This document shows, piece by piece, positions 57,504 through 64,000 of a stretch of 64,000 bases of DNA. The DNA is from Neisseria sp. oral taxon 014 str. F0314. GTDB lineage: Bacteria > Pseudomonadota > Gammaproteobacteria > Burkholderiales > Neisseriaceae. Position 1 is the first letter of the stretch, and the number at the start of each line of letters is the position of its first letter. The notes under the pieces were generated by a model, which was not told where the DNA came from, did no database searches, and saw nothing but the letters and a program-made list of their open reading frames with translations. The translations under genes were made by a program, and so were the position numbers. The stretch covers positions 2,108,001 to 2,172,000 of the forward strand of contig NZ_CP040504.1 in the NCBI RefSeq assembly GCF_005886145.1, read 5' to 3'.

Positions 57504-58223
57504 ATGATGAATAACGAAAATAAAACCGTCAATGCACCGACAACGTCCTCATTGATTCTGGAAGAGCGCCACGATTCCGAGCTTTTCCGCGTGTACGCCC
57601 TGATTTTAGACGGCATTACCGACCATGTGCTGCTGCCGGGCAAAAAGCTCACCGAATCGGAACTCTGCCGCCAGATGACCTGCTCGCGCAATACCGTGCG
57701 CAGTGCGCTTTCGCTGCTGGCGCACGATAAAATCGTCGATTTGCAGCCCAACCGCGGCGCATTCGTGCATGTGCCCGATTTGAAAGAAATGCAGGACGTG
57801 TTCAACGCACGCATCGAAATGGAGGGTATGATTCTGGGTATGCTGGTCGACCTTCCCGACTTGGAGGCGCGCTTGCAGCCGCTCTATGCCATGATAGAAC
57901 ACGAAGAGGCCGCGTCCGGCAGCGGCGACCGCGTGGGCTGGAACCGCCTCTCCAACGCCTTTCACGTCGAACTGGCGCGCCTGCTGGACAACGACGTGCT
58001 GTTCGACATTATGAACACGCTGTGCGCCCGCTCGTCGCTGATTGTGGCGGTGTTCGATGCCAAGCGCCGCGAGAAACGCCCCATCAACACGCATACCCAC
58101 GCCGAGCACCGCGAAATTTTAGACCTGCTGGTCAGCGGCAAACGCAACCGCGTGGTGAAAATCATGCGCCGGCATCTGGGCGCGTGCATCGAGCGCCTGG
58201 AACAAAAATTCGAGGCGCAATAA
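57504..58223 (+). CDS. GntR-family regulator, FCD subfamily
   Basis: 239 residues. The N-terminal winged HTH (~residues 25-95) has GKKLTESELCRQMTCSRNTV and the wing FVHVPDL; the C-terminal all-helical FCD domain has metal-binding-type residues (FNARIEMEGM, HVELARLLDN, THAEHREILD, RRHLGACIERLE). FCD regulators sense carboxylic acids. Neisseria has a well-studied member, GdhR, controlling glutamate dehydrogenase and lactate permease; this may be it, but I did not compare the sequences. Confidence 0.85.
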   Translation: MMNNENKTVNAPTTSSLILEERHDSELFRVYALILDGITDHVLLPGKKLTESELCRQMTCSRNTVRSALSLLAHDKIVDLQPNRGAFVHVPDLKEMQDVFNARIEMEGMILGMLVDLPDLEARLQPLYAMIEHEEAASGSGDRVGWNRLSNAFHVELARLLDNDVLFDIMNTLCARSSLIVAVFDAKRREKRPINTHTHAEHREILDLLVSGKRNRVVKIMRRHLGACIERLEQKFEAQ

Positions 58224-58233
58224 CCGGATTCGG

Positions 58234-58269
58234 TAAGGCCGTCTGAAAAGTCTGTTTCAGACGGCCTTA
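58234..58269. terminator. DUS inverted repeat terminator
   Basis: TAAGGCCGTCTGAAAA and TTTCAGACGGCCTTA between the GntR and DeoR genes. Confidence 0.83.
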
Positions 58270-58325
58270 AGTTTAAATATTACGTACCGGCCGCACGCCG
58301 TTTGTATTCCCCGACGGACGAAACC

Positions 58326-59135
58326 ATGAAACCCCAAATCCGACGACACGAAAAAATCACCGCATTGGTGCGCGAACACGGCTTTATGTCCGTCGAACAA
58401 CTGGCCAGAGAATTGGAAGTTACCCCGCAGACCATACGCCGCGACATCGGCATCCTGAGTGCGGAAAACGTCTTGCGCCGCTACCACGGCGGCGCGGCCT
58501 TGGGCGAGGTGCTGCTCGAAGGCGAATTCGGGCAGGGCGGCCGCCACAGCCGCAGGGAAGAGAAAAACGCCATCGCCCAGCTCATCGCCGCCCATATTCC
58601 CGACAACGCCTCATTATTCATCAGCATCGGCACCACGATGGAGGCCGTTGCCGCCGCGTTGATCAAACAGCGGAAAAACCTGCGTATCATCACCAACAAC
58701 ATCTACGTCGCCGCCCTGGCCTCCGCGCGCAGCGACTACACCGTCATCATCACCTCCGGCGTCGTCCGCCCGCTGGACGGCGGCGTAACCGGTGTCGCCA
58801 CGGTGGACTTCATCAACCAGTTCAAAGTCGACTACGCCGTATTGAGCACGCACGGCGTGGAAGGCGACGGCTCGCTGCTCGATTACGACTACAAAGAAGT
58901 AAGCGTGATGCAGGCGATGATGGCCAACGCTCGGGTGCGCTTCCTCGGCGTGGATCACAGCAAATTCCAGTCGCACGCGCTGGTGCGGCTGGGTGACATC
59001 ACCGATTTCGACAGGGTCTTCACCGACCGCGCTCCCGACGGGGAAATGCAGAAAATCCTCACCGCCGCGGGCGTGGAATGGTTGGTTCCCGAAATCTGCC
59101 AACATGCAACGGAAACAGCAAAGGACGAAAAATGA
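58326..59135 (+). CDS. DeoR-family regulator
   Basis: 269 residues. The N-terminal HTH is FMSVEQLARELEVTPQTIRR followed by the DeoR signature DIGILSAENVLRRYHGGA; the C-terminal sugar-phosphate-sensing DeoRC domain has SLFISIGTTMEAVAAAL and LDGGVTGVATVDFINQFKVD. GlpR-like regulators belong here. It overlaps the GST gene by four bases (ATGA), so the two are co-translated. The effector and targets are unknown. Confidence 0.88.
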   Translation: MKPQIRRHEKITALVREHGFMSVEQLARELEVTPQTIRRDIGILSAENVLRRYHGGAALGEVLLEGEFGQGGRHSRREEKNAIAQLIAAHIPDNASLFISIGTTMEAVAAALIKQRKNLRIITNNIYVAALASARSDYTVIITSGVVRPLDGGVTGVATVDFINQFKVDYAVLSTHGVEGDGSLLDYDYKEVSVMQAMMANARVRFLGVDHSKFQSHALVRLGDITDFDRVFTDRAPDGEMQKILTAAGVEWLVPEICQHATETAKDEK

Positions 59136-59752
59136 AACTATGGTCTTCGACAACCAGCCCCTATGTACGCAAAGTGCGCGCCGCCGCCATCCATCACGGG
59201 CTGGAAAACCGGATAGAACTGGTAACCGTCAAATCGTCGTTCGCCGCCGAATCGGCGCACAACCAAGACAACCCGCTCGGCCGCATCCCCGTATTGCAGC
59301 TCGATAACGGCGAATGGCTGTTCAACAGCAACGTCATCGCCGAATACCTCGATTCCGTCGGGCAGGGCGCGCCGCTTTACCCGCAGGACGCAAGCCGCTG
59401 GCAGGTGCTGAACCTGCACGCGCTGGCGGAAGGGCTGCTGGAAAACACCGTCGCCATGATTGCCGAAAAAATGCTGCGTCCCGAAAACGAATGGTGGACG
59501 GCGCGGCACGAACAAATCAAACAACGCAACGCGCGCACCGTCCCCGTGTTGGCCGAGCACCTGCAACCCTTCGGCACGCAGCTCAACATCGGCACGCTGT
59601 TTGCCGTGTGCGCCGTCGACTTCCTGCTGTTCAGGGACAATCTGACCGGTGCCGCCGGATTGGCGGGCATTTCTGAACTGAAGGCGTGGGCGGATGAAAT
59701 GAATGCGCTGCATCCCTGTTTGGCCGCAACCAAACCCCGTGTTTCAGCCTGA
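59132..59752 (+). CDS. Glutathione S-transferase
   Basis: 206 residues. The thioredoxin-like domain starts MKLWSSTTSPYVRKVRAAAI, with glutathione contacts at NPLGRIPVLQL and LFNSNVIAEYLD, then an all-helical C-terminal domain. The substrate is unknown. Its start codon overlaps the DeoR stop. Confidence 0.9.
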   Translation: MKLWSSTTSPYVRKVRAAAIHHGLENRIELVTVKSSFAAESAHNQDNPLGRIPVLQLDNGEWLFNSNVIAEYLDSVGQGAPLYPQDASRWQVLNLHALAEGLLENTVAMIAEKMLRPENEWWTARHEQIKQRNARTVPVLAEHLQPFGTQLNIGTLFAVCAVDFLLFRDNLTGAAGLAGISELKAWADEMNALHPCLAATKPRVSA

Positions 59753-59887
59753 TGCCGTGCGAGGCCGTCTGAAAAAAGGTTTCAGGCGGCCTGATTTCTA
59801 AAACGGCACGACTCAGGTAAAATAACCGATTTCGATTTCCCGTTCGGGCGGCAGGCCGTCTGAAAAATACATTCGCCGGATTCCATC

Positions 59888-61579
<1,692 letters not shown>

Positions 61580-61592
61580 ACAGCAAAATTAC

Positions 61593-61623
61593 AAAGGCCG
61601 TCTGAATTTTTCAGACGGCCTTT
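61593..61623. terminator. DUS inverted repeat terminator
   Basis: AAAGGCCGTCTGAA and TTCAGACGGCCTTT with a 3-base loop, between glnS and the peptide genes that point toward it. Confidence 0.87.
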
Positions 61624-61668
61624 GCAGTTTGATTGGCAGGAACCAAACCTGCCTTACTGCGTTATTTA

Positions 61669-61797
61669 TTATAAGATAGGAAACCACAGACGAATGTCAT
61701 TATAGTAGTGGGGCGGCACAGACGGATCCGGAAGCGGCCAACGGATTATCATGCCACCGGAAACATATTGAAGTTCTTTACTGTCGATTTCTTTCAT
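61669..61797 (-). CDS. Double-glycine leader peptide 1 (microcin-like precursor)
   Basis: 42 residues. The leader MKEIDSKELQYVSGG is a textbook double-glycine leader of class II bacteriocins and microcins: a charged start, EL at -7/-6, V/S at -4/-3 and GG at -2/-1 of the cleavage site. The 27-residue core contains RWPLPDPSVPPHYY and ends RLWFPIL; it has six prolines, two tryptophans and no cysteine. AAGGAGA stands seven bases before the ATG. It is paired with a second such gene upstream. C39-type ABC exporters cleave such leaders during export; none is in the window. Confidence 0.85.
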   Translation of the reverse strand: MKEIDSKELQYVSGGMIIRWPLPDPSVPPHYYNDIRLWFPIL

Positions 61798-61894
61798 TTT
61801 GAAATCTCCTTTCGTCAATTAAAATCAATAAAAATAAAAAATACAGAACTCTGAGGTGTGATTGGCAGGATATTCAACCTACCTTAACTGCGTT

Positions 61895-62050
61895 TTATAA
61901 AAAGAAAGGCAACCACAGATGAGGATTATTATAGCGGCGGGGCGGGGTAGACGGATTACTTCGGGGCAGTACAGACGGATCCGGAAACGGCCAAGGGAGT
62001 ATCCCGCCACCGGAAACATATTGAAGTTCTTTGCTGTTGATTTCTTTCAT
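61895..62050 (-). CDS. Double-glycine leader peptide 2 (microcin-like precursor)
   Basis: 51 residues. The leader MKEINSKELQYVSGG differs from peptide 1 by one residue. The 36-residue core begins GILPWPFPDPSVLP, has a 9-residue extra segment rich in Pro/Ser/Arg relative to peptide 1 (RSNPSTPPRR), and ends HLWLPFFL. It has ten prolines, four arginines or histidines in the centre and no cysteine. AAGGAGA lies seven bases before the ATG, and the ~35 bases before the start are nearly identical in both genes. It is upstream of peptide 1 in the direction of transcription; the AT-rich region 62085-62260 should hold the promoter. Confidence 0.85.
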   Translation of the reverse strand: MKEINSKELQYVSGGGILPWPFPDPSVLPRSNPSTPPRRYNNPHLWLPFFL

Positions 62051-62264
62051 TTTGAAATCTCCTTTCGTTAATTAAAATCAATAAGAATACATGGTTCAGA
62101 TACCGTTCATGGTTTCTGATAATTTTTAGAGTTATTTCTCTTAATTTGTTTCTTAAATTCCAATTAAGTTGTGAAAAATAATTTATACCCGCCTGTGTTA
62201 GGAAAATGCTGATTTTATTAATATAAATTCAAATCCCATTGGCTGTGCTTTGATAATAAGTTGA

Positions 62265-62525
62265 TGCCTGTTCTCCAAGCCCCGCCTTGATGTTGTGCGC
62301 GGCGAAGACGGCAAATCCCTGTTGTTTACCGGTTTCCTCAACCCCGGATCGGTTAAAGAAATCGCCGCCTACATCGAAGCGGCCGCCAACGATTTGCCTG
62401 CGGAGAGCCGCCGGCAGTTTGAACGGCTGGGCGATTTCGTTACCGACCGCAAAAAGCGTTAGCAGGGCAAGTCCGTGTTCAACCGCACGGTTACGCTGAA
62501 AGATTCTTGGCAGCCCAAGCGGTAA
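62265..62525 (+). pseudogene. glnS: Decayed 3' end of a second glnS
   Basis: The plus strand encodes [20 protein letters not shown], then [34 protein letters not shown], an in-frame TAG at 62460-62462, then FNRTVTLKDSWQPKR and TAA. This is the C terminus of GlnS, about 80 percent alike to the intact gene's end by eye. No 5' part is present. It lies just beyond the peptide cassette, directly before the DUS pair and rho. Confidence 0.9.
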
Positions 62526-62534
62526 AACCGATAC

Positions 62535-62564
62535 AGGCCGTCTGAAACGAGTTTCAGACGGCCT
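62535..62564. terminator. DUS inverted repeat terminator
   Basis: AGGCCGTCTGAAAC and GTTTCAGACGGCCT with a 2-base loop, right after the glnS remnant; probably the original glnS terminator. Confidence 0.85.
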
Positions 62565-62738
62565 CCTGTCTGTTGTCATAACATTTGACACCTGCGTGCC
62601 GACTGCCTACAATTCGGGTTTCCAAAAAATTCTCCGCCGACCGGCAGCCCGAAATTCCCTTTTACAAAATCCTTTCTTTTCAGACGGCCTCCCGTCTTCC
62701 GTTCCCATTACGACTACATCCATCCAAAACCGACGACT

Positions 62739-63998
62739 ATGCACGTTTCAGAACTACAAACCCAACATATCTCCAAACTACTGGAAATGGCCGAGCAGCA
62801 CGGTATCGAAAATGCCAACCGCCTGCGCAAACAAGACCTCGTGTTTGCCATTGTGCGCCAGATGATGAAGCAGGGCGAGAGCTTCACCTGCTCGGGCACG
62901 CTCGAAATCCTGCCCGACGGTTTCGGCTTCTTACGCAGCGCCGATACTTCCTATCTTGCCGGCCCTGACGATATTTATGTGTCGCCGAGCCAGATACGCC
63001 GCTTCAACCTGCATACCGGCGACACCATCGAAGGCAGCGTGCGCGTTCCGAAAGACAACGAGCGCTACTTTGCGCTGGTGCGGCTCGACAGCATCAACTG
63101 CGACGATCCGGAAGCCTGCAAACACAAAATCCTGTTTGAAAACCTCACGCCGCTGTTTCCGACCAAACAGTTCAAACTGGAACGCGACATCAAGGCGGAA
63201 GAAAACCTGACCAGCCGCGCCATCGACCTCGTTTCCCCCATCGGCCGCGGCCAGCGCGCCCTGCTGGTGGCGCCGCCGAAAACCGGTAAGACCGTGATGC
63301 TGCAAAACATCGCCCACGCGATTACCGCCAACTATCCCGACGTCGAACTCATCGTCCTTTTGATTGACGAACGCCCCGAAGAGGTTACCGAAATGAGCCG
63401 TTCCGTGCGCGGCGAAGTCGTCTCCTCCACCTTCGACGAACCGGCGCAGCGTCATGTTCAAGTTGCCGAAATGGTGATTGAAAAAGCCAAGCGCATGGTG
63501 GAACACAAAAAAGACGTGGTCATCCTGCTTGACTCGATTACCCGACTCGCCCGTGCCTATAACACTGTCGTGCCGACCTCCGGCAAAATCCTCACTGGCG
63601 GCGTGGACGCCAACGCGCTGCACCGTCCCAAACGTTTTTTCGGCGCCGCGCGCAACGTGGAAGAGGGTGGTTCGCTTACCATCATCGCCACCGCTCTGGT
63701 GGAAACCGGCAGCCGCATGGACGACGTGATTTACGAAGAATTTAAAGGCACGGGCAATATGGAACTGCACCTCGACCGCCGCATGGCCGAAAAACGCCTG
63801 TTCCCCGCCATCAACATCAACAAATCCGGTACGCGCCGCGAAGAGTTGCTGGTGCCGAACGACCAGTTGCAGCGCATGTGGCTCTTGCGCAAATTCCTGC
63901 ATCCGATGGACGAAATCGAGGCCACCGAATTTTTGGTGGGCAAACTCAAAGATTCTAAAAACAACGACGATTTCTTCGAACTGATGCGCGGCAAATAA
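62739..63998 (+). CDS. rho: Transcription termination factor Rho
   Basis: 419 residues, complete. The N-terminal RNA-binding domain has [17 protein letters not shown] and the cold-shock-like RNP1 region; the ATPase domain has Walker [13 protein letters not shown], Walker [17 protein letters not shown], the Q-loop and R-loop [15 protein letters not shown], and the arginine-finger segment. It forms the hexameric helicase that ends untranslated transcripts. A DUS lies about 50 bases upstream of the start. Confidence 0.97.
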
Positions 63999-64000
63999 AT

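Follow-up and report, generated by a model that had tools for sequence, protein, structure and literature searches.

A tandem pair of double-glycine-leader peptide genes between glnS and rho of an oral Neisseria as candidate orphan effectors exported in trans

Two short genes lie in tandem on the minus strand between glnS and rho in the window, the whole 64,000-nucleotide stretch of Neisseria DNA analysed here. Precursor 1 (61672..61797 (-); MKEIDSKELQYVSGG / MIIRWPLPDPSVPPHYYNDIRLWFPIL) is 42 aa long, runs from 61797 to 61672, ends at a stop codon at 61671-61669 and has a core of 27 residues with a net charge of 0. Precursor 2 (61898..62050 (-); MKEINSKELQYVSGG / GILPWPFPDPSVLPRSNPSTPPRRYNNPHLWLPFFL) is 51 aa long, runs from 62050 to 61898, ends at a stop codon at 61897-61895 and has a core of 36 residues with a net charge of +2. 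From the sequence, an AAAGGAG ribosome-binding site precedes each gene, at 61806..61812 (-) for precursor 1 and at 62059..62065 (-) for precursor 2, with 8 bases between its end and the ATG in both cases, and 37 of the 39 bases upstream of the two start codons are identical. The leaders, MKEI(D/N)SKELQYVSGG, differ by a single amino acid (D/N). A first-pass annotation of this DNA had described two minus-strand ORFs of 42 and 51 codons with AAGGAG sites, and both were found at the positions that it gave; the core features that it listed, P(L/F)PDPSV, YN(D/N), an LW(F/L)P end and a length difference of 9 residues, were also correct.

The pair is carried by a low-GC insert (61630..62265; 37.4% GC vs 52.8% for the whole window) placed between glnS and a degenerate duplicate of glnS that covers its 3′ end only. 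This remnant (62266..62512 (+)), located between the peptide genes and rho, is 82.2% identical over 247 bases to 61320-61566, contains one in-frame stop and matches Pfam PF20974 above cut-off. Sequence comparison indicated that the intact glnS 3′ end of the same locus (61320..61566 (+)) is its probable parent, the best of 29 other glnS ends (loci from 29 of 45 other genomes) reaching 78.4%. Downstream of the peptide genes (-), and also of glnS (+), lies an inverted pair of DNA uptake sequences that resembles a terminator (61590..61626 (-)), with a 17-pair stem, recognised by consensus scan only. Such uptake sequences mark Neisseria, and the window has AGGCCGTCTGAA 74 times and the AT form twice. 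A sigma-70-type promoter scan yielded nothing convincing close upstream of either peptide gene on the minus strand, its strongest site being on the + strand near rho, and the search for a shared upstream motif returned mostly AT-rich words. Since all Rfam matches were sub-threshold, a structured RNA in place of the peptide genes was rejected; tRNA-linked integration of the insert was likewise discarded because 58000-64000 contains no tRNA.

To place the insert among related genomes, 30 rho loci were looked at, from the 44 genomes with a match. glnS was present within the 3.2-kb rho locus in nine of the 30, own included. The glnS-rho gap of the other eight measures 199-397 bases in seven and 1233 bases in one (L037, genome G044), where a permease-like gene, identified by eye, occupies the place of the peptides. 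glnS-rho is therefore an insertion slot in occasional use.

The leaders were scored with a leave-out HMM whose training set was 14 leaders from elsewhere in the genome, excluding the window pair. Results showed 28.3 bits for precursor 2 and 25.1 bits for precursor 1, while the next different ORF among 2449 start-to-stop readings of the window (20-110 aa, nested starts included) obtained 4.8 bits and the maximum over 20 dinucleotide-shuffled windows was 9.5 bits. The leaders of the pair are far above the background of this model, in agreement with the double-glycine leaders claimed by the first-pass annotation. NCBIfam TIGR01847 scored the precursors at 13.6 and 13.9 bits, just below its cut-off of 15.7, and Pfam gave nothing above cut-off on either of them, so routine annotation would probably not name these two ORFs. 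For comparisons across genomes we used a second leader alignment (A1), built from the own genome, whose own count of 18 matches is thus by construction. At a loose E <= 5 the leader model matched 44 of the 46 Neisseria genomes; 6 of 14 control genomes were matched by TIGR01847 at E <= 10, one of them above cut-off. Leader counts across genomes were therefore taken at E <= 0.001.

The cores are proline-rich (22% and 28%), contain Trp, have 0% and 3% Gly and no Cys, and carry a middle with Arg, Tyr and Asn; the expectation of Pro-rich cores without Cys was thus borne out. The precursors are paralogues, and the length difference between them preserves the frame. Comparison of the two genes gave a dN of 0.028 and a dS of 0.131 for the leader, and a dN of 0.290 and a dS of 0.116 for the core. 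Based on 15 changed codons in this one pair, these rates fit a constant leader joined to a changing core, as had been anticipated. An excess of amino-acid changes was seen only in the core of the window pair; the L083 pair of the same genome has a core dN/dS of 0.236/0.331.

Relatives of the pair with a GG leader were not found at E <= 0.01 in 199 relatives, the other 45 Neisseria included, and the proposal to look for the pair in other Neisseria therefore met no counterpart at this threshold. The same search produced four weak matches beyond the own genome, which were judged to be chance because a pattern check revealed no GG-leader ORF at those loci. Plasmids gave one poor match only (Halopiger, E 0.6), and of 50 stretches in viral contigs that fit a pattern, 0 encode a relative of the pair. 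When compared with other GG cores, the window cores reached best E values of 0.054 (among 54) and 0.091 (among 91), with no clear homologue.

The first-pass annotation had suggested looking for a C39 exporter and an HlyD partner elsewhere in the genome, and both are present. Pfam Peptidase_C39 has one match in the single-contig genome of 2,502,058 bases, located 921 kb from the window pair. It belongs to a 711-codon open frame for an ABC protein of ~700 residues, in which the C39, membrane and ATPase domains are all above the Pfam cut-off. Residues 11-691 align with 4ry2, a solved bacteriocin exporter; some eukaryotic ABC transporters outrank 4ry2 by E-value, without the C39 part. Among the best 25 of 185 NCBIfam matches, bacteriocin and type I exporters are on top, all below their own cut-offs. 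The catalytic Cys, His and Asp of the C39 domain were read by eye only, and the named relatives of the protein, from Neisseria wadsworthii (86%) and a Neisseria MAG (75%), agree with the uptake sequences in placing the genome in Neisseria. An HlyD-type gene adjoins the exporter (Pfam above cut-off, NCBIfam TIGR01843 below), and a TolC-type gene (TIGR01844 above cut-off) follows ~2.2 kb beyond it. Four GG-leader ORFs lie between the HlyD-type and TolC-type genes, and one of these four has a leader like those of the window (MKELNTSEQHYISGG). The surrounding genes resemble a capsule locus; a type IV pilin-like gene (L002:6779-7243 (-); NF007862, below cut-off) also adjoins the exporter.

Genome searches with TIGR01847 and A1, followed by reading of the places found, showed that the window pair is part of a dispersed repertoire. 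In 12 places, the genome contains 20 GG-leader ORFs that are intact and one more that is interrupted by a stop after GG; the ten places measured lie 4 to 1066 kb from the exporter. The first-pass annotation had noted neither this repertoire nor the duplicated glnS 3′ end. The cores are strongly unlike one another and include glycine-rich microcin-like (e.g. L163), Trp- or Pro-rich and acidic ones. The interrupted member (L084:2238 (-), genome 2314737-2314699) has its in-frame stop right after the GG leader. Another ORF (L081:2840 (+), genome 1075339) encodes a core with ten consecutive His and two Cys, perhaps metal-binding, and is flanked by a 76-base direct repeat. At L079, two similar GG-peptide modules (a 356-base repeat, 92.7%) enclose a 124-residue ORF (L079:919-1293 (-)) that resembles a membrane protein by eye, has no Pfam match and is a candidate for an immunity gene.

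In this genome, the glnS locus, L081, L082 and the first of the L083 loci have flanking direct repeats of at least 40 bases, and none of that length was found at L002 and L080; the test left out L084, L162 and L163. The repeats at L082:2542, L083:2923, L081:2840 and the window pair measure 41 to ~300 bases, some of them being a copy of a neighbouring gene end or terminator; at L078 and L079 it is the peptide genes themselves that are repeated. Flanking by direct repeats was rejected as a rule for peptide genes, since 13 of 150 random window points also had a repeat of at least 40 bases and just 10 of 33 loci in other genomes did, five of these (L117, L118, L132, L146 and L148) in peptide-gene clusters.

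We then compared the distribution of leaders and exporters within the family. Leader A1 matched 10 of 46 Neisseria genomes, own included, and 0 of 37 genomes from other genera of the family. A C39 match of more than 115 bits was present in 13 of the 46 (20 at any level), and leader matches occurred in 7 of these 13 genomes vs 3 of the 33 others (one-sided Fisher p = 0.0025); counted the other way, such a C39 match was found in 7 of 10 leader-positive vs 6 of 36 leader-negative genomes. The association persisted when the own genome was left out (p = 0.006) and when all 20 C39-positive genomes were counted (p = 0.011). Three genomes run counter to it, with GG leaders but no C39 match above 115 bits: G015, which is 85% complete, and G037 and G038, drafts of ~40 and ~30 contigs. 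They may be incomplete assemblies or hold orphans left after exporter loss.

Reading the stretches around many, not all, of the matches in seven other genomes yielded 91 GG-leader ORFs, 89 of them distinct. Together with 18 from the own genome they make 109, and a ribosome site of the form GGAG or AGGA precedes 86 of these. Single genomes hold up to about thirty such ORFs, many with unlike cores. Whole-ORF dN/dS was about 0.08-0.21 in five cross-species G030-G005 pairs, which are under purifying selection; the GG-leader class is therefore protein-coding. Cross-species pairs involving the own genome had a dS near saturation. In G025, ten GG-leader ORFs are packed into 2.7 kb, with two further ones 8 kb on (L117, G025:C1:526000-542000); this cluster is ~0.58 Mb from the exporter of that genome and contains repeated blocks up to 99% identical, as if precursors multiply through local duplication.

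Short Pro/Trp-rich cores recur in the exporter clusters of G022, G001 and G005. In addition, proline occupied the third- or fourth-last position in 22 of 86 cores vs 12.4 expected. This signature was noticed post hoc and then tested on cores outside the noticing set, where it occurred in 10 of 42 vs 5.3 expected (p = 0.025); combined with a hydrophobic or Arg last residue, it occurred in 8 vs 2.5 expected (p = 0.0018). The over-representation of a C-terminal proline signature in otherwise unlike cores is suggestive only.

On balance, we favour the reading that the window pair encodes orphan effectors resembling class II microcins, exported in trans and probably used in competition. Both ORFs would encode precursors of peptides that are secreted unmodified. 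The sole C39-peptidase ABC exporter would recognise their 15-residue leaders, cut after GG and, with its HlyD partner and the TolC-type channel, release cores of 27 and 36 residues whose body is proline-rich and tryptophan-containing rather than glycine-rich. A single exporter may serve ~20 precursors around the chromosome; if it is shared in this way, a new core would need only a small orphan gene and no dedicated transporter. Judged from sequence, export of the pair is quite likely, and, given export, an antagonistic role is a reasonable expectation: the cores would most likely be narrow-spectrum antagonists of related bacteria, acting like class II microcins. Effectors directed at related bacteria are favoured by the large and varied repertoire, by the divergence of the cores and by the type of exporter. 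As the two paralogues combine one leader with two diverging cores, the pair might cover two targets or evade immunity. Two points stand against antagonism. An immunity-like membrane-protein ORF of at least 25 aa was not seen by eye beside the pair, and the closest experimentally tested GG peptides of Neisseria, the Naps, offer a different precedent.

Naps are three short GG-motif peptides that promote gonococcal autolysis with no detectable antimicrobial activity (PMC11798529). That the window peptides are autolysis peptides of this kind is a rather unlikely alternative. Like them, Naps are small Neisseria peptides with predicted C39 processing, their island has 38% vs 53% GC, much as the window insert has, and the want of an immunity gene by the pair would suit such a role. 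However, the pair lies at another locus, next to glnS and rho and without the nap neighbours napP and napF, and its repertoire is dispersed. Naps are also described as cationic and predicted to be alpha-helical, whereas one window core has no net charge, so that the two are not both cationic, and at 22% and 28% proline the cores are not clearly helical. Furthermore, up to ~thirty GG-leader ORFs per genome with many unlike cores exceed what autolysis would appear to need. In addition, nap is described as largely a feature of gonococcus and meningococcus, N. bergeri and N. lactamica being the exceptions (PMC11798529, 2025).

Microcin-like effectors stay the preferred reading, and class II microcins such as microcin V show the same combination of a short precursor, a GG leader, a C39 ABC exporter, a membrane-fusion protein and a TolC-type channel in the genome. 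In one survey, which does not contain the word Neisseria, class II microcins are glycine-rich (12-26% Gly) and encoded near their exporter, in contrast to the high-proline, glycine-poor cores of the window at their 921-kb distance (PMC11494933). Class II microcins also have adjacent immunity, for which the window pair has no candidate in view. Because glycine content and exporter proximity fail, we do not file the pair as class II microcins, although its mode of action may be similar.

Pheromones, too, can be exported through GG leaders and C39 exporters, as in ComC/ComA. Signalling peptides that report density or kin identity to a receptor encoded elsewhere in the genome are an improbable alternative. 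Pfam ComC is the best match to precursor 1, at a sub-threshold E of 0.14, and the cores are short and lack Cys. GG-leader pheromone systems nevertheless have a sensor kinase and a regulator beside the peptide, where the pair has glnS and rho and no such gene directly beside it was seen; a large mixed repertoire is also a better fit for effectors.

A further possibility is that the two ORFs are decaying or unexpressed relics of a duplicated, once functional precursor gene whose export or activity was lost. The degenerate glnS remnant flanking the pair, the failure to find it in the other species searched, the GG ORF elsewhere in the genome that stops right after GG and the want of a convincing promoter all point in that direction, but both frames are open, both ribosome sites are intact and the paralogues differ in length in frame; relics are distinctly improbable. 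Being 921 kb from the exporter and found in no other species searched, the pair could be decaying or very young. Least probable of all is a role as proline-rich peptides taken up into cells, with the ribosome or a release factor as their binding target: antimicrobial peptides of this kind are strongly cationic with repeated PRP motifs, and the window cores, despite their proline content, their Arg/Tyr/Asn-containing middle and a PPRRYN that loosely resembles proline-rich insect peptides, have little charge and, by eye, no PRP repeats.

Other known systems share some traits with the candidate effectors. In class IIb bacteriocins the two peptides are unlike each other, carry GxxxG motifs and share one immunity gene; the window pair likewise has two consecutive genes, yet these are paralogues, with no GxxxG in the cores by eye and no immunity ORF seen. 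For each of the three roles put forward by the first-pass annotation, a two-peptide bacteriocin, ribosome-targeting peptides and a signal pair, some defining features are missing here. The bacteriocin-type signal domain proteins of Treponema denticola also have their precursors in tandem, a leader of bacteriocin type and ABC exporters; they are secreted and killing was not detected, and they differ in being clustered by the exporter and much larger (PMC11879956). Within Neisseria, the meningocin genes NMB0097/NMB0098 of N. meningitidis, likened here by description, are two secretion genes on which a diffusible inhibitor depends; according to a 2022 review, the peptide genes of that inhibitor had not been identified (PMC9263626).

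According to the same review, no Neisseria bacteriocin had been characterised both genetically and biochemically, and bacteriocin genes had been reported in oral Neisseria genomes (PMC9263626). Elsewhere, putative bacteriocin islands are named in meningococci (PMC8627216) and secretion of a diffusible toxin is thought absent in one N. subflava strain (PMC13375697), and the 2025 Nap paper treats its own GG peptides as largely a pathogen trait (PMC11798529). A search of the open-licence PMC literature gave no description of a dispersed GG-peptide repertoire in Neisseria. Dirix et al. reportedly performed a genome-wide GG screen of Gram-negative bacteria in 2004.

In several species of Neisseria, the leader model brings to light as many as ~thirty short ORFs per genome for predicted exported peptides. 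Many lie at a distance from the exporter, where a search of its surroundings would miss them. The old question of the bacteriocin genes thereby becomes a list of peptides open to synthesis and testing. A possible route also emerges by which naturally transformable bacteria could gain new cores without a new transporter. More tentatively, several Neisseria lineages might possess a one-exporter, many-peptides arsenal of up to ~thirty orphan precursors set between housekeeping genes, with a constant leader and freely exchangeable cores, in which the Pro/Trp-rich cores would represent a new effector class that may explain the meningocins, Neisseria bacteriocins reported long ago but still lacking genes.
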